Made by a program: the position numbers and the translations under genes. The notes under the pieces are model-generated. The model searched no databases. It worked only from the letters and a program-made list of their open reading frames with translations, and was not told where the DNA came from. This document shows, piece after piece, positions 1-11,535 of a DNA stretch of 13,275 bases (positions within the stretch are counted from its first letter, which is position 1; every line of letters begins with the position of its first letter). The DNA is from Candidatus Omnitrophota bacterium (GTDB lineage Bacteria > Omnitrophota > Gorgyraeia > JACOVV01): NCBI GenBank assembly GCA_016177145.1, contig JACOVV010000032.1, forward strand, positions 1 through 13,275, read 5' to 3'.

Positions 1-3000
1 CGCTGTCCTTGGCGTTTGCGGCAAGTTCAACGGCTCTGTTGATCAAATAAATTCTCGATGCGGCCAGGTCGCGGAACTGACCGGATGTTTGCACGACCAC
101 GTCAATCCGCGGGCGTTTTAATTTCTCCATCGGAATCAATCGAACGTCGTAAACGGCCCCCCTGGCGTTGCGCACCGGCTCCACCCCCAAAAGATAGAGA
201 ATCTCGGCAATCGTCGTTCCCTGTTCGCGGACAAATTCACTGCTCCAAAGGGTAAAAGCCACCTTCTTGGGATAAGCCCCTGTCTCCTTTTGCCGGATCT
301 CGATCAGCCGCTCGGCAAGCTTCACACCGGTCTTCCACGATTCCTCCGTCGGCGTTTTCTCGGCATCAATCCCATAGGTATTCCGCCCCGCAGGAATCGA
401 ATCCGGGTTGACGATCGGGTCGCCCCCTGAGGCGGGAGCCGTATAGCCGCCGGACAAAGCATTGACAATGGTGTTCATTTCGATCTCAGGAGAGCTTTCG
501 ACAGCCTTGTAATAATTCTTGATGGACGAGAGCGTGGATTGATAAAGCTCATAAGCCGCGTTAAATTTCTGTTGATCGAGGACGCTTTCGCGCGAATGCG
601 AATGAACCTCACCGTCACTCATGGTTTGATGATCATGCTCACGGTCCTGCTGATGCCTGTCGTGCTCATGAGAATGCTCTCCTGCCGGGAGCCATTCGTG
701 AGAATGGGCGGCAACGTAATGCTCTAATCCATTAAGATCGGCAAATTCTTCAGGAGACGCGCCGTTCAATAAAATCTCATCAATCAGGGCAAAGGCCTGG
801 CCGCGATAGAACTGCTCCAAATCATGTCCATGCAATTCCGTCTGCAAGATTTCCCGCCCTCTGGCCGAATCCATTTCTTCAAGACCATGGGCCAAATAAT
901 CCACGGCGATCAACCGCACGGTCTCTGTCATTTCTTCGGGGCGATAGTTCTCTCCTAACCGGTAAAGACCTCTTGTGATTTTTCCCTGAGCCAGCGAATG
1001 GCCGTATTCGACGATTTTGTCTATCATTTCGTCGGAGACAGTGGACGTGCTGTTAAAATCATCGAAACCGAGGTCTTTATAAATATTCGTCTTAAGGAGA
1101 AGACCTTTGATCGTTTCCCGGTACTCTTCTTTTATCGCTTCATCCTCGATACTCTGAAACTCATGGACCTTGTCATGAAGTCCGGCTAAATCCGAATAAA
1201 GCCCTGATTCGGTAAACGGCGGCGTGATATGCGTCATCATCGTCGCGTAACTTCTTCTTTTGGCCACCAGGGCCTCGCCGATATTACTGATCGAGTAAAG
1301 ATAAAAATGCGGAATACCGTTGAGCAGGGCGTCGGGCCAATCGTATTGGGACAACGCCACCTGTTTCCACGGTGTGAATTCCACACTGCCGTGGGTGCCG
1401 AAATGGATAAACGCATCGGCCCCAAATCCGCGAAGCCCCCATAAATAAGCGGCAAGGTAAGGATACGGCGGCGCTTTTTTGGCGCCGTGGACAAGTTTGG
1501 ACTCGTTCCCGCCATACGCGGATAAAGGAACCGGCAAAAGGACCACGTTCCCGAATTGAACGCGCGCCACCGTGACAGCCGGTTTGCCGTTTTTCTCAAG
1601 GGTCATATACTCCCCGATCGGCCTACCGTATTCGCGTTCGACATCCGCGATCATCTCCGGCTGGAAATATTTTTCCATCCACTCAGTGATTTGGTCTTTT
1701 TCAATCAACACAGGATCACCGCTCTTGAGATACTCCTCAAATGCCCCTTTGGCATAAGGCCCCAACACCCGCCCGTCGTTTTGTATTTTTTGAAGCAGCT
1801 CGTCTTCGTTTTCAGGCAGCTTGCCGGTGTTATAGCCCTCAGCTTGTAAGCGTCTCAAAAGGTTCAGAAGGGAAGGAGCGATTTCCAGCCCTTCGGCGAC
1901 CATCGCATTCTGTCCGGCTCCTTTGTAATAAAAAATCGTGATTTTCTTTTCCGCGTTCGGCATCGTGCGCAGACGTATCCAGCGACTCGCCAAATCACAA
2001 AAAGTTTCTATGCGGCCCGGCAGCTCTTTAAAGACTTTCAGTCCGCTCTGGTCTGCGAATTGCGTCGCAATCACGTAGGGAGAAACACCGCCGTCCACTT
2101 CCGGCATCACGACACCTTGACTCAATACCCCGGCATCAATGCCGCGCTGATTTTTAAGCCATGCCTCATATTCCTCAAACACCACGAGCGGACAGAGCAG
2201 GGGGATATTTTGTTTCTTAAGCCACGCAACACCCTCCTCCGAAGCAAGCCGCCCGTGCGGAATCAAGACGATCAAAGAAGGATTGACTCCTTTAAGAAAT
2301 TCAAGACGCTTATCGTTGCCAAAAACCGGATAGAGATTAAATCCTCTTTTCTCAAAGCTCCTGATGAGCGGTTCATAAAACGCTCTGCCTCCTTCCCGTC
2401 CAAGGACGACGGAAACAATCGCAATCCTTGGCGCCCCCTCTTTATAAAATCCCTTACGTTCGTAAAACCGCTGATAAGCTTCGAAGCTTGCGAAAACATC
2501 CTCCTCTCTCAGGTGAAAGAACCCCTCGTTCGGATAAACAACCGGTTCCGCTATTTTGCGGGAGAATAAAATTTTCCTGTCGAACACCCTCCTGGAATAA
2601 TTGAGCAGCGACCACAGATTCTTCCGCCCGCCGTTTTCAAAGTACGCCTTGACCCGTTCCCGGTCTTCCCCTTTCAGATTGCCGAAATCGGCGTCTCCCT
2701 GCAGTAAACCGAATAGATAGAGTTTGGTTCCGCTTTTTCCCGCCGCCTGAATTTGCTCGATCTGTTTTTCGCTGAGATTGATGGCGTGGGCGAAAAAATA
2801 GATCACATCGTATTTCTTCAAATTAAAATCCTTGCCGGATTGAAAATCAATCCGATGGAGTTGAATCAACGGATTGTCATTGGCCTGGCGAATAGGAGCA
2901 AATTGATGATCGGCAAAATTGACAAACCCGATATGGGTTACAGACGCATATTGAGAGTAACCCAGCCAAGCCGCCGCGAAAAATACGATCCCCATCCCTA

Positions 3001-3022
3001 GTTTTTTCTTATTCCGGAACAT
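1..3022 (-). CDS. hmuS: CobN-like metal chelatase, HmuS-type (haem dechelatase candidate), 3' end off window
   Basis: The reading frame is open from an ATG at 3022 to the left edge, about 1007 residues with no stop, so the C-terminus is missing; CobN-family proteins are usually 1200-1400 residues. CobN signatures are visible: HFGTHGSVEFTPWK at residues 540-553 (compare HFGTHGTLEWLPGK in CobN), VAFTLWSSEFVREQGTTIAE near 921, and RPRIDVVVQTSGQFRDL near the edge. Residues 9-28 are hydrophobic after a lysine-rich start, which suggests a membrane anchor or signal peptide, unlike cytoplasmic CobN. Residues 768-809 hold a histidine-rich insertion with 11 His. The start overlaps the upstream DUF2149 gene by 14 nt and has a Shine-Dalgarno AGGAGGGG. 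The context (hemP, HmuT/U/V-like genes, Fur box) points to HmuS, which in Bacteroidetes acts on haem, rather than to cobalamin synthesis. Family is certain; haem as substrate is inferred from neighbours. Confidence 0.85.
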   Translation of the reverse strand, partial: MFRNKKKLGMGIVFFAAAWLGYSQYASVTHIGFVNFADHQFAPIRQANDNPLIQLHRIDFQSGKDFNLKKYDVIYFFAHAINLSEKQIEQIQAAGKSGTKLYLFGLLQGDADFGNLKGEDRERVKAYFENGGRKNLWSLLNYSRRVFDRKILFSRKIAEPVVYPNEGFFHLREEDVFASFEAYQRFYERKGFYKEGAPRIAIVSVVLGREGGRAFYEPLIRSFEKRGFNLYPVFGNDKRLEFLKGVNPSLIVLIPHGRLASEEGVAWLKKQNIPLLCPLVVFEEYEAWLKNQRGIDAGVLSQGVVMPEVDGGVSPYVIATQFADQSGLKVFKELPGRIETFCDLASRWIRLRTMPNAEKKITIFYYKGAGQNAMVAEGLEIAPSLLNLLRRLQAEGYNTGKLPENEDELLQKIQNDGRVLGPYAKGAFEEYLKSGDPVLIEKDQITEWMEKYFQPEMIADVEREYGRPIGEYMTLEKNGKPAVTVARVQFGNVVLLPVPLSAYGGNESKLVHGAKKAPPYPYLAAYLWGLRGFGADAFIHFGTHGSVEFTPWKQVALSQYDWPDALLNGIPHFYLYSISNIGEALVAKRRSYATMMTHITPPFTESGLYSDLAGLHDKVHEFQSIEDEAIKEEYRETIKGLLLKTNIYKDLGFDDFNSTSTVSDEMIDKIVEYGHSLAQGKITRGLYRLGENYRPEEMTETVRLIAVDYLAHGLEEMDSARGREILQTELHGHDLEQFYRGQAFALIDEILLNGASPEEFADLNGLEHYVAAHSHEWLPAGEHSHEHDRHQQDREHDHQTMSDGEVHSHSRESVLDQQKFNAAYELYQSTLSSIKNYYKAVESSPEIEMNTIVNALSGGYTAPASGGDPIVNPDSIPAGRNTYGIDAEKTPTEESWKTGVKLAERLIEIRQKETGAYPKKVAFTLWSSEFVREQGTTIAEILYLLGVEPVRNARGAVYDVRLIPMEKLKRPRIDVVVQTSGQFRDLAASRIYLINRAVELAANAKDS

Positions 3023-3338
3023 AAATAATTTTCCCCTCCTCTAATTCATAAGCGACCCCAACCCGCCGCCCTTTGCCTTCGCTTGTTTTTCCCGATGCTT
3101 TATAACGCTCTATCTCCTTCCCCTTCTTGATGATGATCTCCATGTTTTCTTTTCCGGGATTTTTCACTAGCGTCATCTCCTCCTGCGTAAAAATCTCGGT
3201 CATTTGCAGACGGGTGACCATCGCCACCATCAAAGCCACGGCAAACACCGTGGCCAGATCAAAAAGATTGGCCATCCCAGACAACGGGTCATCGTCAAAG
3301 TCACTTAAGGCCTTATACGAGTATCGTCTTTTTGTCAT
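3009..3338 (-). CDS. DUF2149 family protein, HmuV-like, ExbD-like membrane protein
   Basis: A 109-residue protein from the ATG at 3338; a TTG two codons earlier is a weaker choice. The ATG has GGAG six bases upstream. The N-terminus is basic and then acidic (DDDPLSGMANLFD, residues 15-27), followed by one membrane helix (about 28-44) and a small soluble domain rich in Lys and Glu. DPLSG followed by a helix is, from memory, the DUF2149 signature. Asp27 at the helix entrance sits where ExbD and TolR carry their proton-pathway Asp, so an ExbD-like partner role is plausible but inferred. The gene overlaps the ExbB-like gene upstream by 26 nt and the chelatase downstream by 14 nt, implying translational coupling. 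In Bacteroidetes hmu loci the equivalent gene is hmuV. Confidence 0.75.
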   Translation of the reverse strand: MTKRRYSYKALSDFDDDPLSGMANLFDLATVFAVALMVAMVTRLQMTEIFTQEEMTLVKNPGKENMEIIIKKGKEIERYKASGKTSEGKGRRVGVAYELEEGKIIYVPE

Positions 3339-3930
3339 TTTCAACTCCGCTTCGGGCTAAATCAAACAGGTACTGCAAATTATTCAGATCCTCGATAAAC
3401 CACCGCTTCTTTACCAGATGAGTCACAAACCCGACAGCCCCGCAGAAGACGCCGATGACTGTCGTCGAAAAAGCAACCTGCATGTTAACGGCCATCGCAG
3501 TCATATTGCCGGAAGCCAGAGCCACCAGCGCCGGCCCCAGCGGGATCAACGTCCCCATCAGCCCCAGCATCGGCCCCACCCGAATCAATATCTTGGAGGA
3601 TTCAAGTTCCTTCTCCCCCTTGAGTTCGAAATCGGCCAAAATTTTATCGGTATGGACAGAGCGCCATTGCGCGCGGCCGGCTTCATTGAGTGAAGCAGCA
3701 AACCGGCTGTGGCCGCTGAGGTTCGGTAATTTGAATTCCGATTCGCCTATCTCTTTGAGATCCAACAAAACCTGGCCGATCTCTTCTCTGAATTTGAGCC
3801 GTCCCAGATAGATGCCATAGAAACTTCCGAGCATCAAAAGCGACCCGATGAAAGACACAATTAAAAACACAACCACCGGCATCAGAAATGCCATCGAGAC
3901 CCAATAGAGAATATTCGTTAAGAAATTCAT
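3313..3930 (-). CDS. MotA/TolQ/ExbB-family proton channel protein, HmuU-like
   Basis: 205 residues with three hydrophobic regions: about 8-43, 115-140 and 145-173. The motif VGPMLGLMGTLIPLGPAL (118-135) corresponds to the ExbB/TolQ signature around LGPLLGLLGT in membrane helix 2, and helix 3 (VAFSTTVIGVFCGAVGF) keeps the family pattern of small and Thr residues. It is clearly divergent from the canonical ExbB encoded at 9235-9855. The ATG at 3930 has AAAGGA seven bases upstream and lies 4 bp after the preceding gene's stop. Its partner is probably the DUF2149 protein that overlaps its 3' end. Together they could form a proton-driven motor for the haem system (inferred). The equivalent gene in Bacteroidetes hmu loci is hmuU. 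Confidence 0.8.
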   Translation of the reverse strand: MNFLTNILYWVSMAFLMPVVVFLIVSFIGSLLMLGSFYGIYLGRLKFREEIGQVLLDLKEIGESEFKLPNLSGHSRFAASLNEAGRAQWRSVHTDKILADFELKGEKELESSKILIRVGPMLGLMGTLIPLGPALVALASGNMTAMAVNMQVAFSTTVIGVFCGAVGFVTHLVKKRWFIEDLNNLQYLFDLARSGVENDKKTILV

Positions 3931-3934
3931 CTGT

Positions 3935-4615
3935 TTATCCTTTCTTCAACAATCGCTTCTGCCGTAAAAACCCGAGCCCGCAGAATCCTGTCATCGTCAG
4001 CAAAACCACCATGGTTTGCTTGACGGGAATTTCAAAATGGCTTTGACCGATATTGGCGCCAACAATCACCAGCGGAAGAAACGCAGCCAGGAGAATCTGT
4101 AAAAATGAAAGCGCTATCTTGGACTCCATCTTCCATTCCCATACTTTTATCCATTTATCGAGAGCCGCGGCGCTTAAAATCAAAACGGTGAAAACGCCGA
4201 CGGCAAATCCCAGCGCGATCAAAAAGAACGAAATCCTTTCAATGGCATGAAAAAGAGACGTCTGCATTAGGAAAAGCCCGGCCAGGAAAATCCCCGAAGG
4301 GGCTAAAACCAAACTCTGGGTCATCATCCGATTCCGGCCGGCATAGCGGCTCTTGATTAAAAGGAAACTGAGAAGCATCATCCCGATAGACTCAAATGCC
4401 TGAAACGCACAAGCCGCCGACAGCGCGTTAAAATCAGACAGAAATTGAAAAGCAGTCTGAAGATTCATTTTTGCCGACAGGGGAAAGAACATCAAAATCG
4501 CCGCCGATACTAAAGCAGCATAGATCAGCTGATGTCTTTTCTTGGCCAGCAGAGAAATGCTATGAACGGTATGGATGAATCCTAAGATAAAGAGGATTCC
4601 CAAAAACAACCACAT
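3935..4615 (-). CDS. Seven-helix membrane protein, HmuT/DUF2162-like
   Basis: 226 residues, almost entirely hydrophobic, with about seven membrane segments (roughly 1-22, 27-46, 62-87, 105-124, 130-155, 168-190 and 198-218) and a basic C-terminus (RQKRLLKKG). No catalytic motif is recognised. Two histidines in the first helix (His15 and His18, in FIHTVHS) could be ligands, but this is speculative. The assignment as DUF2162, a predicted transporter family, rests on gene context: it precedes an ExbB-like gene, a DUF2149 gene and a CobN-like gene, the set seen as hmuT-U-V-S. The start at 4615 has only a weak GGGG Shine-Dalgarno. A 112-bp gap containing a hairpin separates it from hemP. It may be an inner-membrane permease for haem or iron. 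Confidence 0.6.
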   Translation of the reverse strand: MWLFLGILFILGFIHTVHSISLLAKKRHQLIYAALVSAAILMFFPLSAKMNLQTAFQFLSDFNALSAACAFQAFESIGMMLLSFLLIKSRYAGRNRMMTQSLVLAPSGIFLAGLFLMQTSLFHAIERISFFLIALGFAVGVFTVLILSAAALDKWIKVWEWKMESKIALSFLQILLAAFLPLVIVGANIGQSHFEIPVKQTMVVLLTMTGFCGLGFLRQKRLLKKG

Positions 4616-4671
4616 CGTAACCCCGTGTTGGTAATGTTGTGTCGCTAGCTGGGTTTTGTCTTTTGAGCAGG

Positions 4672-4703
4672 AGCGCCGTCCCTGGCTGTTTAAAGGCGCT
4701 TGG
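4672..4703 (-). repeat. Hairpin element, copy B
   Basis: An imperfect inverted repeat (AGCGCC ... GGCGCT) encloses a loop whose sequence is shared with the element at 8180-8209. On the minus strand the shared part reads GCCTTTRAAYAGCCAGGGA followed by GGC. It lies between hemP and the HmuT-like gene, about 57 bases before that gene's start. No U-tract follows on the minus strand, so it is not a simple terminator. It could be an mRNA-processing or stability structure within the operon, or an interspersed REP-like repeat. Confidence 0.55.
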
Positions 4704-4727
4704 ATTTTTGGCTGGGTATCGCTTTAT

Positions 4728-4916
4728 TTATTTTGTCAGAATTAATTTCCGTTGTTTGGTAATCATCAGGCGATACCAATCGTCATTATGCTTAATCAGA
4801 ACAAGCCGCCCTTCGTCTCCAAAGAGGTCTTTAGAGTGAATGACCAGACTTGCCTTGCCGGTTAAATCAACCATCGGTGAGGGTGCGCTCGTCTCTTTTA
4901 AATCCTCTTGTTTCAT
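4728..4916 (-). CDS. hemP: Haemin uptake protein HemP
   Basis: A 62-residue protein starting MKQEDLKETS. The C-terminal half, LVLIKHNDDWYRLMITKQRK followed by LILTK, matches the HemP/HmuP family, whose members end in a Y-R-L-x-x-T-x-x-x-K-LILTK pattern. Family members are short proteins encoded first in haem-uptake operons; in some proteobacteria they are needed for activation of the haem receptor gene. A GTG one codon upstream (4919) sits eight bases from GGGAG and is a possible alternative start. The gene is the first of the haem operon, about 75-80 bases downstream of a Fur box and promoter. Its presence is the strongest sign that the genes that follow handle haem rather than corrinoids. 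Confidence 0.85.
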   Translation of the reverse strand: MKQEDLKETSAPSPMVDLTGKASLVIHSKDLFGDEGRLVLIKHNDDWYRLMITKQRKLILTK

Positions 4917-4990
4917 CACAAAAGTTTCTCCCTTTAACCCGCCGTAACGGACTTACGTTGACTCCAATCAGAGACGGTCTGGCCTAAGAA

Positions 4991-5019
4991 ACGATAAAGA
5001 GAATGAGACTCATTCTCAA
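4991..5019 (-). promoter_or_regulatory. Predicted sigma-70 promoter of the hemP operon
   Basis: On the minus strand TTGAGA (5019-5014) is followed after 17 bases by TATCGT (4996-4991): 5/6 and 4/6 matches to the consensus at ideal spacing. The Fur box occupies nearly the whole spacer, so Fur binding would block RNA polymerase. The predicted leader to hemP is about 70 bases. Confidence 0.6.
4999..5017 (-). promoter_or_regulatory. Fur box of the hemP-hmu operon
   Basis: GAGAATGAGACTCATTCTC is a perfect 9-1-9 palindrome of 19 bp. It has the architecture of the Fur consensus GATAATGATAATCATTATC and matches it at 14 of 19 positions. It overlaps the -35 element and spacer of the hemP promoter. The same TGAGACTCA core recurs before exbB and on the fur start codon. 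Confidence 0.85.
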
Positions 5020-5048: not shown

Positions 5049-5870
5049 TCAATTATCCTCAATCTTTCTTTCCTTGAGCAAGAAGGTTATCCCAATCAAG
5101 TAACTCCAATAAACGATCACCTCGGTCAGAGATGGATTCCCGTTATACCCGAACAGCGCCTTCAGAAAAGACCCGATCCCCTGTTTTTCATTCAGAATAG
5201 GATTGATATTCCAAATGGGATAAATGATGGGGTTGATCCACCCTATTTCTTCCAGTTCGTGCACACCGTAGGCCAGTAATCCCCCGGCAATCACAAGAAT
5301 CAACAATCCTGTCCCACGAAAGAGCGCGCGCATCGGAATCTTCTTTCCGCCGAAAAAGAGGAGCGCCGCGATCGTCACCGCCAGAGAAAATCCAAAGAGT
5401 CCGCCCCAAAAAGAAACTACCCCTCCTCCCTGTAATGAGATGGCTTTTAAAAACAAAACCGTCTCCGCCCCTTCCCTGAAAACCGCGAAGAAAGGAAGGG
5501 AAATCATGACGAAATAATCATTTCTCGAAAGAGCCGCCTCCACTTTCGTTTCGATATCCGATTTGATTTTTCTCCCCTGTTTGTCCATCCAAAAAACCAT
5601 ATAGGTAAGAACAGAGGCCGCCACCAGAGAAATGACCCCTTCGATCACTTTCTCCATCTGCCCTTGCGCCGATTGAGTCAGCGTCATGATCCATAATCCA
5701 GCGCCAATACTGACCAGAATCGCCGCAAGCACGCTGGCAAAGACATGAGAAAAATACCGATGGGCTCTTAGGCGAGCCAGAACCGTCAGGATGATCCCAA
5801 CGATCAGGCTCGCCTCAAGGGCTTCCCGAAAAACAACTAGAAACGTCGCTGCAACTGTCGCCTCATTCAT
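5049..5870 (-). CDS. FTR1/EfeU-family high-affinity iron permease
   Basis: 273 residues, close to the usual FTR1/EfeU length (about 276 for E. coli EfeU). Both family signatures R-E-x-x-E are present: REALE at 15-19 (in FREALEASLIVGI) and REGAE at 132-136 (in FREGAETVLFLKA). These glutamates bind iron during transport. About seven membrane helices are visible. The ATG at 5870 was chosen over an upstream frame extension because AGGAG lies seven bases before it and the family starts just before the first REALE motif. The start is 10 bp after the receptor stop, and its Shine-Dalgarno abuts that stop. No EfeO or EfeB partner follows. The likely role is moving iron released from the FecA-like receptor's substrate across the inner membrane. 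No terminator was seen downstream. Confidence 0.92.
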   Translation of the reverse strand: MNEATVAATFLVVFREALEASLIVGIILTVLARLRAHRYFSHVFASVLAAILVSIGAGLWIMTLTQSAQGQMEKVIEGVISLVAASVLTYMVFWMDKQGRKIKSDIETKVEAALSRNDYFVMISLPFFAVFREGAETVLFLKAISLQGGGVVSFWGGLFGFSLAVTIAALLFFGGKKIPMRALFRGTGLLILVIAGGLLAYGVHELEEIGWINPIIYPIWNINPILNEKQGIGSFLKALFGYNGNPSLTEVIVYWSYLIGITFLLKERKIEDN

Positions 5871-5880
5871 ACACGTGCTC

Positions 5881-8115
5881 CTAAAATTTCTTCTCGACTC
5901 CCGCCGTAAACGTAAACGGTTTCCCAGGCCTTGGCCCGATCGGGTGCCTGGCCACCATGTACTCTCGATCAAATACGTTATCCAGATTCACAAAGAATGT
6001 GTCATTCTCGGTCATCTTGTAGTGAGCTGAAAGATCCAGAGTCCAGATGGCGTCTGTTTTCCCGACGTTGGAATTCGGCGTTCCTGTTCCATTGACCCCT
6101 TCATTCTGATTGGAGGTATTGCTGGCCGTCGTGAAAGTCTCATCCACAAAAATGAGATCGGCAGAGAGGTCCCATTTCGTAAATCCTAAACCGGTCCCGA
6201 ACTGGAACTGATACTCCGGAATGTAGGGGACTTTTTTCCCTTTTGTCCCGAAGCTGAATGTCGTGGCATCGTCGCTCTCTGTAGCGCTGCTCGCGTCACT
6301 TTGCAATTCCGCGTCGGTGTAGGTGAAGGAGAGGCGATAGGGATTGCTGAAGCTCCAGTTTCTGGCCAGTCCCAGGTCATACTCTGCCAGGTACTCCACT
6401 CCTAGACTGCTCACTTCTCCTACATTTTGGGTGGCGGCTGTTCCTCCTCCTCCGACGTTGTCCACAACGATCAAATCATTGAAGCCGGTGTAGAAGAAGA
6501 TCGCTTCAGTACTAAATCCCCGTTGATTGTTATACCGCGCTCCTAATTCAGTGCCGATACTGGTCTCTTCGTGAATGCCGCTGCGCACAAAATCTCGCGG
6601 AGCGGGAACTGAAAACCCGCGGTGCACTCCGCCGAAGAGCGACCAGGAGTCGCTGAGCCGATACTGAGCGCCCGCCCCGCCGGCCAAGACGTCGAGGGTT
6701 TTACTGCCGCTGGCGGTGACTCGCTGCGGATCGGTTCCGGTGGTGTCATAATCACGGTATGAATAGTCAATACTTTCGTAACGGATCCCCGGAAGAAAAG
6801 TCCAGGCGTCTTTCTTGATTTCATCCTGGAGGAAGAACGCCAAGGCATTGGCATCTTCGCGCCGATTGCCGGCGCTGCCTGATCCCCAGGCCGTTTCATT
6901 CCTTGCGGTAATCGCCCCGTTGGCATCCTGGGTAAAATTGACGTTCCGCTGGAACCGCCTGACCCGATCCCAATGATATCGAGTTCCAAATTCCAAATGA
7001 TTCGTCCAATCGCTCAAAGGGAAATCATATCCCAACACCGACTCGACGCCGCTCAACCAGTAATCCCGGTTGTTGTCACGATAGGGTAAAGTCCCCGCCG
7101 CTTCTCCCTTCCATAACGCCCGCGTCTGGTCATCTGATAAATCTCTCCCCCCCCCATTGAGCTTAAACCAGTCGCGATGGAATTTGTTGTAGTAGCCGGT
7201 GGTTGTTAATTTCAGACCGGGTTTTAGTTCTATCGCGTGCTGCAGAGAACTGCGGAAGTGATTGGAATCGAAGTGATCGAAACGAGAAGCGGGATACCGT
7301 TGGTAAGGATTATCGCTGAAATCATCGTCAAAGAGTCCCATATAAGTTTCATCCGATTCATGATCGGTATATCCTAGTTTTAACTGAAACTTCTGATCCA
7401 AACTTGTTTCCGGTTCCCATGACAGTTTCAAAGTCGAGTCGCTATTTTCAAAGCCGGTCTCATCCCGGTTAGAGATCCCCGGTTTTTCATTGATCGTCTT
7501 GAAGCCATCGGTGCTGCGGAAGTAGTGCTCCACCAGATACCCCACCTTCCCGAAGGAGGTATTGAGTGTATCCCCAAGATAGCCGTGCGCCCGCGCGTCA
7601 AAATTGGAACCGCCGCTCCCTTTCAAATACATTTGCCGCTCTTGTGGTATCGGAGTAGAGAGATAATTAATCACGCCCCCCGTCGTGTGCGGACCGTATT
7701 TCACCTGGCTGGTCCCTTTTAACACTTCGATCCCGCTCATTCGTCCGGTCGTCGGCGAATAGTAAGCGGCCGGCGCGGAATAAGGCGCAGGCGCTGTCAG
7801 AATCCCGTCCTCCATGATCGTGACTTTCTGGCTTCGCCCGGGATCCACTCCTCTTAAGCTGATGTTGGGAAACTGTCCGTAACCCTCTTCATCACGGACA
7901 TAAACCCCCGGGACTTGGCGCAAAAGTTTTCCGACATCATCATAACTATGTTCACGAATCTGGTCTTGGTCAATGTAGGCGGCCGAACCGGGAAGGGTCT
8001 GCGCCCGTTCTTTGGATCCGACCACGGTGACTTCTTCTAAGGAAGTGACTTCCGCCATCGCGGGTGAACCGATGAACATCATCAACCACCCAAGTAATGC
8101 CGCAAAAAAACCCAT
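5881..8115 (-). CDS. FecA-like TonB-dependent outer-membrane siderophore/ferric-chelate receptor
   Basis: 744 residues. A signal peptide (1-21, ending SPAMA) is followed by a TonB box (EVTVVG, 28-33), a plug domain to about residue 160 and a 22-strand-type barrel ending in Phe (VEKKF). The plug motifs ISLRGVDPGRSQKVTIMEDG (85-104), APAPYSAPAAYYSP (108-121) and VKYGPHTTGGVINY (138-151) resemble FecA-type ferric citrate receptors. The FRAP and NPNL motifs of typical haem receptors are not seen; the matching barrel region reads GFSVPAPRDFV. Start: AAGGAG seven bases before the ATG. It follows tonB by 104 bp and precedes the FTR1 permease by 10 bp. The coding strand has nine consecutive G at 7147-7155 (residues 321-323). 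Ligand is uncertain: ferric citrate or another ferric chelate. Confidence 0.9.
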   Translation of the reverse strand: MGFFAALLGWLMMFIGSPAMAEVTSLEEVTVVGSKERAQTLPGSAAYIDQDQIREHSYDDVGKLLRQVPGVYVRDEEGYGQFPNISLRGVDPGRSQKVTIMEDGILTAPAPYSAPAAYYSPTTGRMSGIEVLKGTSQVKYGPHTTGGVINYLSTPIPQERQMYLKGSGGSNFDARAHGYLGDTLNTSFGKVGYLVEHYFRSTDGFKTINEKPGISNRDETGFENSDSTLKLSWEPETSLDQKFQLKLGYTDHESDETYMGLFDDDFSDNPYQRYPASRFDHFDSNHFRSSLQHAIELKPGLKLTTTGYYNKFHRDWFKLNGGGRDLSDDQTRALWKGEAAGTLPYRDNNRDYWLSGVESVLGYDFPLSDWTNHLEFGTRYHWDRVRRFQRNVNFTQDANGAITARNETAWGSGSAGNRREDANALAFFLQDEIKKDAWTFLPGIRYESIDYSYRDYDTTGTDPQRVTASGSKTLDVLAGGAGAQYRLSDSWSLFGGVHRGFSVPAPRDFVRSGIHEETSIGTELGARYNNQRGFSTEAIFFYTGFNDLIVVDNVGGGGTAATQNVGEVSSLGVEYLAEYDLGLARNWSFSNPYRLSFTYTDAELQSDASSATESDDATTFSFGTKGKKVPYIPEYQFQFGTGLGFTKWDLSADLIFVDETFTTASNTSNQNEGVNGTGTPNSNVGKTDAIWTLDLSAHYKMTENDTFFVNLDNVFDREYMVARHPIGPRPGKPFTFTAGVEKKF

Positions 8116-9855: not shown

Positions 9856-9876
9856 TTTTTGCCCTTCTCATTTTTG

Positions 9877-9899
9877 ATTATGAGACTCATTCTCATAAT
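9877..9899 (-). promoter_or_regulatory. Fur box(es) upstream of exbB
   Basis: A 23-bp inverted repeat, ATTATGAGA-N5-TCTCATAAT. A second, offset palindrome centred at 9885 (ATGAGACTCAT) shares the TGAGACTCA core of the other two boxes. Two overlapping registers suggest that more than one Fur dimer binds. The minus-strand CATAAT at 9885-9880 is a reasonable -10, but no good -35 lies 16-18 bases upstream. Transcription may also run in from fur. Confidence 0.8.
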
Positions 9900-9921: not shown

Positions 9922-10416
9922 TTAGAACTTGATCTTAAACTCGCGCTCCTTTTCTTTTGTTTTTCCCTGCCGGCACCGGACGCAGGTCCCGTACATTTTA
10001 TGGCTGTGGGACGCGATCGTGAAATTGTATTTTCTGGCGACCTTCTCTTGAAGTTCTTCAATCGCCGGATTTTCAAACTCGGTAATTTTGCCGCACTCAA
10101 GACAAATCAAATGATCGTGGTGGTGATGTCCCACCATCTGTTCGTAGTAGAGCTTCCCCTGCTCGAAATCCCTCGGTTCGATTAACCGGCTCTGCGTCAA
10201 TAATTGCAGAGTGCGGTAAACCGTCGCTTTGGAAGCCGTTCTGTCCTTTTTATGGACCCGCGCCCAAAGATCATCCGCCGTGAAATGCCCTCTAACCGCG
10301 AGCGCCTCTTTGACGACAACCTCTCTTGGACGCGTAATCTTCATCCCCTTTTCCTTTAGGAATTCCTCAAACCCTCCCCAGGGGTTTTGCTTGTCAATAC
10401 TGATATTGAGTCTCAT
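9922..10416 (-). CDS. fur: Fur-family ferric uptake regulator
   Basis: 164 residues from the ATG at 10416. The winged-helix DNA-binding part starts with FEEFLKEKGMKITRPREVV (16-34) and has recognition-helix region ASKATVYRTLQLL (61-73). The metal-binding part has GHHHHDHLICLECGKITEFE (96-115), His137/His139 and C145-x2-C148, giving the HHHHDH iron-sensing cluster and a CxxC...CxxC structural zinc site. HHHHDHLIC favours Fur proper over Zur or PerR. The start is a decision: ATG 10416 has no Shine-Dalgarno but coincides with the predicted transcription start. ATG 10344 has AAGGA seven bases upstream but would remove the first helix. TTG 10452 lies in the -35 element and is unlikely. The protein presumably represses its own gene, exbB and hemP when iron is sufficient. 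Confidence 0.92.
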   Translation of the reverse strand: MRLNISIDKQNPWGGFEEFLKEKGMKITRPREVVVKEALAVRGHFTADDLWARVHKKDRTASKATVYRTLQLLTQSRLIEPRDFEQGKLYYEQMVGHHHHDHLICLECGKITEFENPAIEELQEKVARKYNFTIASHSHKMYGTCVRCRQGKTKEKEREFKIKF

Positions 10417-10426
10417 TATCAGTATT
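10396..10426 (-). promoter_or_regulatory. Fur box overlapping the fur start codon (autoregulation)
   Basis: A 31-bp palindrome centred at 10411 with arms AATACTGATA and TATCAGTATT and inner core TGAGTCTCA; only one base pair of the 15 per arm fails. Minus-strand positions 10420-10402 read GATAATGAGACTCAATATC, matching the Fur consensus GATAATGATAATCATTATC at 15 of 19 positions. It covers the last half of the -10, the predicted +1 and the first codons of fur. Confidence 0.85.
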
Positions 10427-10452
10427 ATAATAAAACAGATGCCGGCTGTCAA
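10424..10452 (-). promoter_or_regulatory. Consensus sigma-70 promoter of fur
   Basis: TTGACA (10452-10447), exactly 17 bases, then TATAAT (10429-10424): a perfect 12/12 match to the sigma-70 consensus. The -35 lies in the 3' arm of the hairpin that ends lpxD. The predicted start of transcription, six or seven bases past the -10, falls at 10417-10416, on or next to the A of the fur ATG. Confidence 0.85.
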
Positions 10453-10473: not shown

Positions 10474-11535
10474 GCGCTGCGCCTCCCAGGGGGCTTGCCC
10501 GTTCAATTTGATTTCCAGTTCTTCAATCCGTTTCTGAAGCCGTTCGACCGTTTTCAACAACTCGGGCAGGCGTTGGAGCGCCGCGTTCAGCCGTTTCGCC
10601 TGCATGTGCGGCTTCGCGGGATACCCGGAGACACAAGTATTCTCCGGAACCGATTTGGTGACACCCGCCTGGGCGGCGATTACGGCGTTATCCCCTATCG
10701 TGATATGCCCCACAATTCCCGATTGCCCCGCCAGAGTGACGTTGTTTCCGATTTCCGTGCTTCCGGAAATTCCTGTCTGCGAGACAATGACCGAATGTTC
10801 CCCAACCACGACGTTATGCGCGATCTGGACAAGATTGTCAATTTTTGTCCCTTTTTTAATCCAAGTTTTGTCAAACCGCGCGCGGTCAATCGTAACGTTG
10901 GATCCGATCTCAACGTCATCTTCAATCACAACCGTTCCTATCTGCGGTATTTTGTGGTGAACCCCTTTGACCGTGGAAAAACCAAAACCATCGCTTCCGA
11001 TAACGCTTCCACTGTGGATAACCACACGGTTTCCGATCTTAACTCTTTCCCGGATCGTCACGTGAGGATAAATCAAACAGTCCTCTCCTATCCTGGCATG
11101 GTGTCCCACATACACCCCCATGTCAATAACGGTCCGGTCGCCAATAACGGCGTGATCATCCACCATCGCGTAAGGCTCAATGGCCACCCCTTTCCCCAGG
11201 ACCACTTCTTTGCCGATCACGGCGGTCGGATGGATTCCCTTTGGTCGCCTGACTTCATTGGGAGCGATTAACTGGACCATCTTGGCGAAAGCAAGGGAAG
11301 GATTTTCGGCGCGGATAATGGGCCGCGAAGACTCTTTGACATCGTAAGAAGTGATAATGGCGCTTGCTTTGGTCTGCTGCATCAAGGGAAGGTATTTCGG
11401 GTTCGCCAGAAAAGTAATATCCCCTTCCCTGGCTTCTTTGATCCCGGAAATCCCCGTGATCACAATATCTCCATCACCGATCACTTCTCCCCCAATGAGA
11501 CTCGCAATCTCCCGGAGGTTCTTCCTGATCGGCAT
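10459..11535 (-). CDS. lpxD: UDP-3-O-acylglucosamine N-acyltransferase LpxD
   Basis: 358 residues from ATG 11535 (E. coli LpxD has 341). It adds the N-linked 3-hydroxyacyl chain to UDP-3-O-acylglucosamine in lipid A synthesis. The N-terminal uridine-binding domain (MPIRKNLREIASLIGGEV, and GDITFLANPKYL) is followed by a long run of hexapeptide repeats forming the left-handed beta-helix (about 100-305). GSDGFGF (180-186) is a family motif, and the catalytic His is His240 in QIAHNV, against His239 in E. coli, which supports this start. An in-frame ATG at 11577 would overlap skp by 29 nt. The C-terminus is a predicted amphipathic coiled coil (LLKTVERLQKRIEELEIKL). It is 13 bp downstream of skp. 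fabZ and lpxA do not follow. Confidence 0.96.
   Translation of the reverse strand: MPIRKNLREIASLIGGEVIGDGDIVITGISGIKEAREGDITFLANPKYLPLMQQTKASAIITSYDVKESSRPIIRAENPSLAFAKMVQLIAPNEVRRPKGIHPTAVIGKEVVLGKGVAIEPYAMVDDHAVIGDRTVIDMGVYVGHHARIGEDCLIYPHVTIRERVKIGNRVVIHSGSVIGSDGFGFSTVKGVHHKIPQIGTVVIEDDVEIGSNVTIDRARFDKTWIKKGTKIDNLVQIAHNVVVGEHSVIVSQTGISGSTEIGNNVTLAGQSGIVGHITIGDNAVIAAQAGVTKSVPENTCVSGYPAKPHMQAKRLNAALQRLPELLKTVERLQKRIEELEIKLNGQAPWEAQRKKAG

Follow-up and report, generated by a model that had tools for sequence, protein, structure and literature searches.

A Fur-associated HmuS-type gene set in an Omnitrophota genome, probably for oxygen-independent extraction of iron from haem

A 2025 publication reported that the protein HmuS de-chelates haem (PMC12583661), and the core idea pursued here is therefore already known. 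As described in that report, HmuS of Bacteroides thetaiotaomicron converts haem to protoporphyrin IX and Fe(II) with NADH. The same report defines HmuS by a Met-rich insertion, Met-79, His-254 and body motifs, a definition drawn from 680 sequences at least 50% identical to the B. thetaiotaomicron protein; a membrane anchor at each end and a periplasmic location also belong to it. The gene belongs to the hmuYRSTUV operon found in B. thetaiotaomicron and Porphyromonas gingivalis, and PMC10100974 describes the intact hmu operon as confined to Bacteroidetes (further literature drawn on: PMC13083405, PMC7857532, PMC9241770). Here we analyzed a related gene set, hemP-hmuTUVS, on contig JACOVV010000032.1 of Candidatus Omnitrophota. 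The stretch analyzed (the window), 13,275 bases long, spans one whole contig of a metagenome-assembled genome (MAG; G000) of 1.23 Mb and 60% completeness. We consider it probable that this module is a Fur-controlled, probably periplasmic, bis-His system for haem-iron extraction of the HmuS type. The gene set would thus probably pull iron from haem without oxygen, an independence taken from the published B. thetaiotaomicron HmuS work (PMC12583661).

The module lies on the minus strand. It begins with hemP (4728..4919, 63 amino acids; PF10636, 49.5 bits, cut-off 25), followed by genes for an HmuT-like inner-membrane protein (3935..4615, 226 amino acids; identified by iterative profile, with an AlphaFold model), an HmuU-like protein of the MotA/TolQ/ExbB family (3313..3930, 205 amino acids; PF01618, 36.3 bits, cut-off 22.9), an HmuV-like DUF2149 protein (3009..3338; PF09919, 117.8 bits, cut-off 27.1) and an HmuS-like class I chelatase (2..3022; PF02514, 684 bits). 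The left edge of the window is the contig end, so that 1007 amino acids of the chelatase are seen, its C-terminal part is missing and the flank to the left is outside view. Gaps of 112 nucleotides (hemP-hmuT) and 4 nucleotides (hmuT-hmuU) and overlaps of 26 (hmuU/hmuV) and 14 nucleotides (hmuV/hmuS) separate or join the genes. An initial annotation, made from the sequence alone, had described hemP, a seven-helix protein, an ExbB-like protein, a DUF2149 protein and a CobN-like chelatase in one tight run; all five are present.

Judged by its sequence, the chelatase is HmuS-like and not CobN. Its best solved match was B. thetaiotaomicron HmuS (PDB 9d26) at 762 bits, versus 294 for ChlH and 232 for CobN, and the best CobN model gave 450 bits against a cut-off of 1248, the query being the chelatase as cut by the contig end. 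In a 58-row tree, a quick LG+G4 search in which the BchH and Cupriavidus campinensis rows form long branches, the window chelatase fell within the HmuS-like group, away from the CobN and BchH anchors. The CobN anchors were rows with cob neighbours from Azospirillum, Spirosoma and Natronococcus; the BchH anchor was a Sulfitobacter row between bchB and bchL that is annotated CobN and is here called BchH. On bit scores, the CobN cut-off and the tree, a CobN or BchH identity was rejected, and the clustering with aerobic CobN that the initial annotation had named as decisive against its own proposal appeared neither in bits nor in the tree. CobN and ChlH/BchH share with the window protein the PF02514 family and the active-site His. 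They differ in forming a separate branch, in their cob or bch neighbours and in lacking the HGR motif discussed below, and the four anchors have no strong terminal hydrophobic segments.

The window's 12-row set in this tree contained the G283 protein from another Omnitrophota genome, a protein of the proteobacterium UBA652 (locus L024), proteins of the planctomycetotes Algisphaera and Poriferisphaera, the Acidobacteriota protein P0032 and nameless proteins. Tree rows also came from unannotated Cupriavidus campinensis and Caballeronia loci. Among the matches listed, the nearest chelatase was P0002 (71% identical), labelled Candidatus Omnitrophica and located on G283:C44. HmuS-like matches occurred in 7 of 384 Omnitrophota genomes. 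Four of these (G000, G283, G188 and G002) carry TUVS systems, with G283 and G188 placed in the window's class; G218 has a 31% match, and G129 and G111 carry lone relatives. These lone proteins (L018, L019; 28-30% identical) have HGR and HFGTHG motifs and response-regulator neighbours, with no TUV nearby.

The active-site motif HFGTHG, with His544, corresponds in the window to HFG(T/A)HG with His-538 in B. thetaiotaomicron. We aligned 200 relatives (120 proteins listed of 2319 found, plus 80 loci), and all 200 keep the catalytic His. This bears on the proposal that the chelatase is a haem chaperone, passing haem on to the membrane complex with its iron still in place, an alternative put forward for HmuS of P. 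gingivalis (PMC13227078). Firm haem binding by a bis-His site would be conceivable, yet the catalytic His kept by all relatives argues against a chaperone, as does the B. thetaiotaomicron catalytic His-to-Ala variant, which is reported to have lost turnover while keeping haem binding (PMC12583661). We regard this alternative as very unlikely. The HGR motif is also kept in the window, at 256-258, with His256 equivalent to B. thetaiotaomicron His-254. The motif LSLDHxxEFMGG (His-1209) falls past the contig end; the nearest relatives, P0002 and P0003, have it, and LDHxxEF is found in 189 of 192 long relatives.

What is new here, from the alignment, is that two published HmuS hallmarks are absent: Met-79 is replaced by His and the Met-rich insertion by a His-rich one. 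Across the 200 relatives, residue 79 was Met in 99, His in 54, Arg in 32, Ile in 5, Pro in 4, Lys in 2, Ala, Val or Leu in 1 each and a gap in 1, and position 254 was His in 195, Met in the four Pro79 rows and Leu in one row. The resulting 79/254 pairs included Met/His (99), His/His (54), Arg/His (32) and Pro/Met (4). In the window's 31-row set of a 200-row FastTree tree, all 31 members had His79 and 12 had a His-rich insertion (at least 8%). Of the 53 His79 rows whose segment could be used, 12 had His-rich loops, versus 1 of 99 Met79 rows; tested as independently linked traits, His79 and the His-rich loop gave 6 independent pairs, none informative, and so no support from independent contrasts. 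Over the same segment, only 21 of the 99 Met79 rows reached at least 8% Met, and the insertion, as aligned, therefore varies throughout the relatives. The published Met-rich sample is narrower than the present 200 relatives. The literature searched and read contained no mention of residue-79 variation beyond the contrast with CobN/ChlH, nor of a His-rich insertion. In P0012 (Poriferisphaera), P0014 and similar proteins the insertions are ~280-310 residues long, and their His-rich flanks enclose a small domain that Pfam does not name.

The ligand pair may relate to the molecule handled. An Rfam scan of 33 chelatase-bearing loci found that all 4 Pro79/Met254 loci (L049, L051, L053 and L100) have a same-strand cobalamin riboswitch ending 31-70 bases upstream of the earliest possible start of the receptor open reading frame (ORF) ahead of S. 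None of the other 29 loci scanned had a riboswitch in that position (L025 and L078 are cut, with the operon start out of view), and at L098 (Arg79) one lies on the opposite strand. The four loci are shared by two neighbouring genera, and may represent one event. Since Hmu-like operons behind cobalamin riboswitches have been reported before (PMC10100974), the link to the Pro/Met pair extends that report. These Parabacteroides and Dysgonomonas loci are receptor-S(-T-U-V) operons whose HmuS homologues may act on cobalt corrinoids. They resemble the window in their homologous S, and in T, U and V seen in 3 of 4, and differ in having Pro79/Met254 and a cobalamin riboswitch where the window has His79/His256 and Fur-type sites.

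Could the window's module likewise be a membrane-anchored CobN-like system acting on the cobalt of cobalamin or another corrinoid? The 4 of 4 Pro79/Met254 operons behind cobalamin riboswitches make the idea worth considering, as does the G002 receptor described below, which is nearest a B12-receptor model without reaching its cut-off. Against it, the Rfam scan found no cobalamin riboswitch in the window, which carries Fur-type sites instead; both of its ligand positions are His; its nearest relative has a haem receptor; and CbiC was not found in G283 or G002, nor in G000, which is only 60% complete. We therefore consider a corrinoid substrate quite improbable. As a tentative and rather doubtful generalization, the 79/254 pairs might mark cargo, Met/His and His/His denoting iron-tetrapyrrole operons and Pro/Met cobalt-corrinoid ones, with the window representing a bis-His type with a His-rich loop in which HmuUV drives the chelatase and not the receptor.

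The neighbouring genes of the relatives give further indications of cargo. In G283, TUVS is followed by ExbB, ExbD and TonB and then by a receptor scoring 432.7 with the TonB-hemin model (cut-off 316.85). Just after this receptor (L015 15063-16580) there is a weak phage terminase-like match, below cut-off, that may mark an insertion. The second observation that the initial annotation had named as refuting, corrinoid synthesis genes immediately left of the window, concerns DNA past the contig end; in G283 the corresponding place after hmuS is taken by the ExbB, ExbD, TonB and haem-receptor genes. G002 has the order Fur, FeoB, receptor, ExbB, ExbD, TonB, TUVS. In G188, FeoB and a flavodoxin-like gene accompany the HmuS-like gene on C27, and CbiC accompanies a CobN-like gene on C30; FeoB thus shares a contig with the HmuS-like gene in both G002 and G188. 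A search of 7 genomes detected CbiC in 1, ferrochelatase in 2 and FeoB in 5, absences from the window's incomplete MAG carrying little weight. In G188 an FmdE-domain protein (PF02663; L016 9364-10068) is encoded between hmuV and hmuS, with a DUF2023 and a flavodoxin-like gene upstream. At the UBA652 locus, an HsmA-family membrane protein (TIGR03987, 127 bits; L024 8854-9231) directly follows hmuS, a similar-looking ORF lies upstream (556-933) and a flavodoxin further on (10872-11411); these are possible electron donors for haem reduction.

A further possibility is that the module releases a metal other than haem iron from a metallophore, as PA1922-PA1925, an operon of the zinc-starvation response in Pseudomonas aeruginosa, may do. 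Binding of Zn or Ni is common among His-rich loops, and the FecA-like receptor of the window makes an iron chelate other than haem possible. PA1922-PA1925 is described as having the same gene types (a receptor, a CobN-like protein, an ExbD-like proton-channel protein and DUF2149 together) within the Zur regulon (PMC9431628, PMC8456098); it differs in its zinc regulation, and the likeness is by paper description only, PA1923 being outside our tree. The window's sites are of Fur rather than Zur type, although no search aimed at Zur sites was made, and hemP, FTR1 and the haem receptor of the nearest relative also speak against this possibility. A metallophore substrate is unlikely.

Three Fur-type sites were found in the window, scored against a Fur consensus. 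The first, ahead of hemP, is a perfect 9-1-9 palindrome, GAGAATGAGACTCATTCTC (4999..5017; 15/19 matches). It is the sole such palindrome of the window, whereas 200 first-order random sequences contained 0.05 on average. The second precedes exbB (9876..9894; 15/19) and the third is at the start of fur (10402..10420; 16/19). The core TGAGWCTCA occurs three times (5004, 9881 and 10407), versus a mean of 0.05 in dinucleotide shuffles, none of 200 reaching three. A 12-of-12 sigma-70 promoter (TTGACA, 17, TATAAT; 10452-10424) lies just before the fur site. Because this promoter adjoins the Fur-type site at its start (10402-10452), fur is probably autoregulated. For hemP, the initial annotation had proposed a Fur box and a promoter; the palindrome stood up, and the promoter hexamers (9/12) were no better than chance, with 12 promoter-like sites seen in the scan and 12.4 expected. 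The proposed linkage of the chelatase to HmuT, HmuU and HmuV homologues, with a Fur-type site ahead, was also borne out.

The HmuT-like protein was linked by iterative profile to the T genes of 70 loci, including that of B. fragilis, and its AlphaFold model is all-helical (mean pLDDT, the predicted local distance difference test, 88.5). This membrane protein (4615-3935) had no Pfam match at E 0.01, and a PADLOC scan led nowhere. DUF2162, an earlier label for it, had no match in the window protein and matched 1 of 37 homologues only, at E 0.0035, and the label was dropped. HmuU shares a conserved block with B. fragilis HmuU, and HmuV has an invariant Asp within its hydrophobic segment, present in all 59 sequences aligned. 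Of the 384 Omnitrophota genomes, 5 contain DUF2149, namely the four with TUVS and G049; among 14 control genomes it was found only in Methanosarcina acetivorans, an archaeon without an outer membrane. The G049 copy (L129, G049:C155) is on a 3-kb contig with hmuU- and hmuV-like genes between archaeal-looking surface-protein genes, and looks like archaeal contamination of the MAG.

ExbB (9855-9235; PF01618), ExbD (9238-8804; PF02472) and TonB (8807-8220; PF03544) form a separate, complete receptor motor on the minus strand of the window, and the three genes also stand beside TUVS in G283 and G002. Because this complete set stands beside TUVS, we infer that HmuUV serves as a motor for the chelatase.

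The initial annotation had seen the locus as a Bacteroidetes-type module to which a proteobacterial hemP had been added. This view fails on both counts: Pfam hemP is present in 19 of 384 Omnitrophota genomes, and the module falls outside the HmuS clade of Bacteroidota; those members of its own clade that carry names come from Omnitrophota, Planctomycetota and Acidobacteriota, plus one proteobacterium. At 8 of 10 such Omnitrophota hemP loci viewed, a homologue of Fur, a TonB receptor or FTR1 was near hemP, two of these matches being weak. Pfam hemP occurred somewhere in 4 of 24 chelatase-bearing genomes. A hidden Markov model built from four hemP sequences, which took the place of a text pattern blind to the hemP of the window, found only the window and the three seed loci above threshold among all loci collected, and thus no other collected chelatase locus with hemP nearby. 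Gene order differed among the 80 named loci: 53 had an order starting ST, some incomplete (51 Bacteroidota, 2 Pseudomonadota); 11 had TUVS, one showing UVS only (4 Bacteroidota, 2 Planctomycetota, 2 Lentisphaerota, 1 Omnitrophota, 1 Pseudomonadota, 1 unassigned); and 16 had S with no partner order recognised, contig ends truncating several of these. The window shares the order TUVS with G283 and G002, in contrast to the STUV of most Bacteroidota loci; in G188 an additional gene separates TUV from S.

Taken as haem-iron extraction, the module could work as follows. Under iron limitation, Fur would leave the operator observed ahead of hemP and hemP-hmuTUVS would be transcribed. Haem would arrive via a TonB-dependent receptor and bind between the head and neck of the chelatase, presumably held by His79 and His256. 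By analogy with B. thetaiotaomicron HmuS, the body of the protein would carry out demetallation, using His544 together with another His beyond the contig end. The His-rich loop may take over from the Met-rich loop in capturing haem or the metal set free, the proton motor would consist of HmuU and HmuV, and released iron could enter the cell via an inner-membrane carrier such as the adjacent FTR1.

Several observations weigh against haem-iron extraction. Met-79 and the Met-rich insertion, both family-defining in print, are absent: the alignment shows His79, and the insertion has 11 His and 1 Met in 80 residues (His-rich part ~765-810; hypergeometric p 2.9e-6, for a region picked after inspection). 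The N-terminal hydrophobic segment of the window chelatase is weak, at 1.16 versus 1.93 in the G283 copy, which has hydrophobic segments at both ends (1.93 and 3.25); the window's C-terminus is beyond the contig end. HmuV, called ExbD-like in PMC10100974, had no detectable similarity to ExbD (a profile comparison based on just three ExbD sequences gave a probability of 0.3%, and the PDB yielded no match). The G002 receptor scored best with the B12-receptor model and then with siderophore and haem models, all below cut-off, and the only solved matches of the window receptor were FecA (85 bits), with no haem receptor among them; on sequence grounds this receptor speaks against a haem-only reading. 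No comparable Fur box was found in the G283, G188 or G002 loci by the window's criteria. Finally, according to PMC6460266, release of protoporphyrin IX persisted in a B. fragilis double mutant of btuS1 and btuS2.

The minus-strand order from 13275 to 1 is BamA-like, Skp-like, LpxD, Fur, ExbB, ExbD, TonB, TonB-dependent receptor, FTR1/EfeU-type permease and then the module. The Fur-family regulator (9922..10416; start codon uncertain, listed ORF 10452-9922) scored 97-104 bits with three models of the ferric uptake regulator, short of the cut-off in each case. The FecA-like receptor (5881..8115) matches PF00593 and PF07715, and the permease (5049..5870) PF03239 (154.4 bits, cut-off 25.3) and the EfeU model (210 bits, below the cut-off of 255). 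The BamA and Skp labels are putative, assigned from sequence and gene order; the single family scan run on the Skp-like protein was uninformative. The taxonomic order of the window's genome contains 2 genomes, and the other (same genus, 71% complete) had no match, leaving no close kin to extend the contig.

Compared with hmuYRSTUV, the window has homologous S, T, U and V genes, the active-site His and HGR, and Fur regulation is also stated for B. thetaiotaomicron (PMC10100974). It differs in having His for Met-79, a His-rich rather than Met-rich insertion, the order TUVS after hemP, its own ExbB-ExbD-TonB and FTR1 adjoining, and another clade and phylum. No hmuY was recognised on the contig and neither hmuY nor the haem receptor gene hmuR among the annotated operon ORFs, no HmuY model having been run; the upstream receptor is FecA-like and the left flank is beyond the contig.

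The His79 clade, spanning Omnitrophota, Planctomycetota, Acidobacteriota and a proteobacterium, keeps the active site, and T, U and V where context is visible. A receptor motor beside HmuUV questions the view, expressed in PMC12583661 and PMC10100974, that HmuUV energises the receptor. Moreover, the role of haem at site 1 was called unclear by its discoverers (PMC12583661), and the natural His, Arg and Pro variants at residue 79 offer a test of that role.

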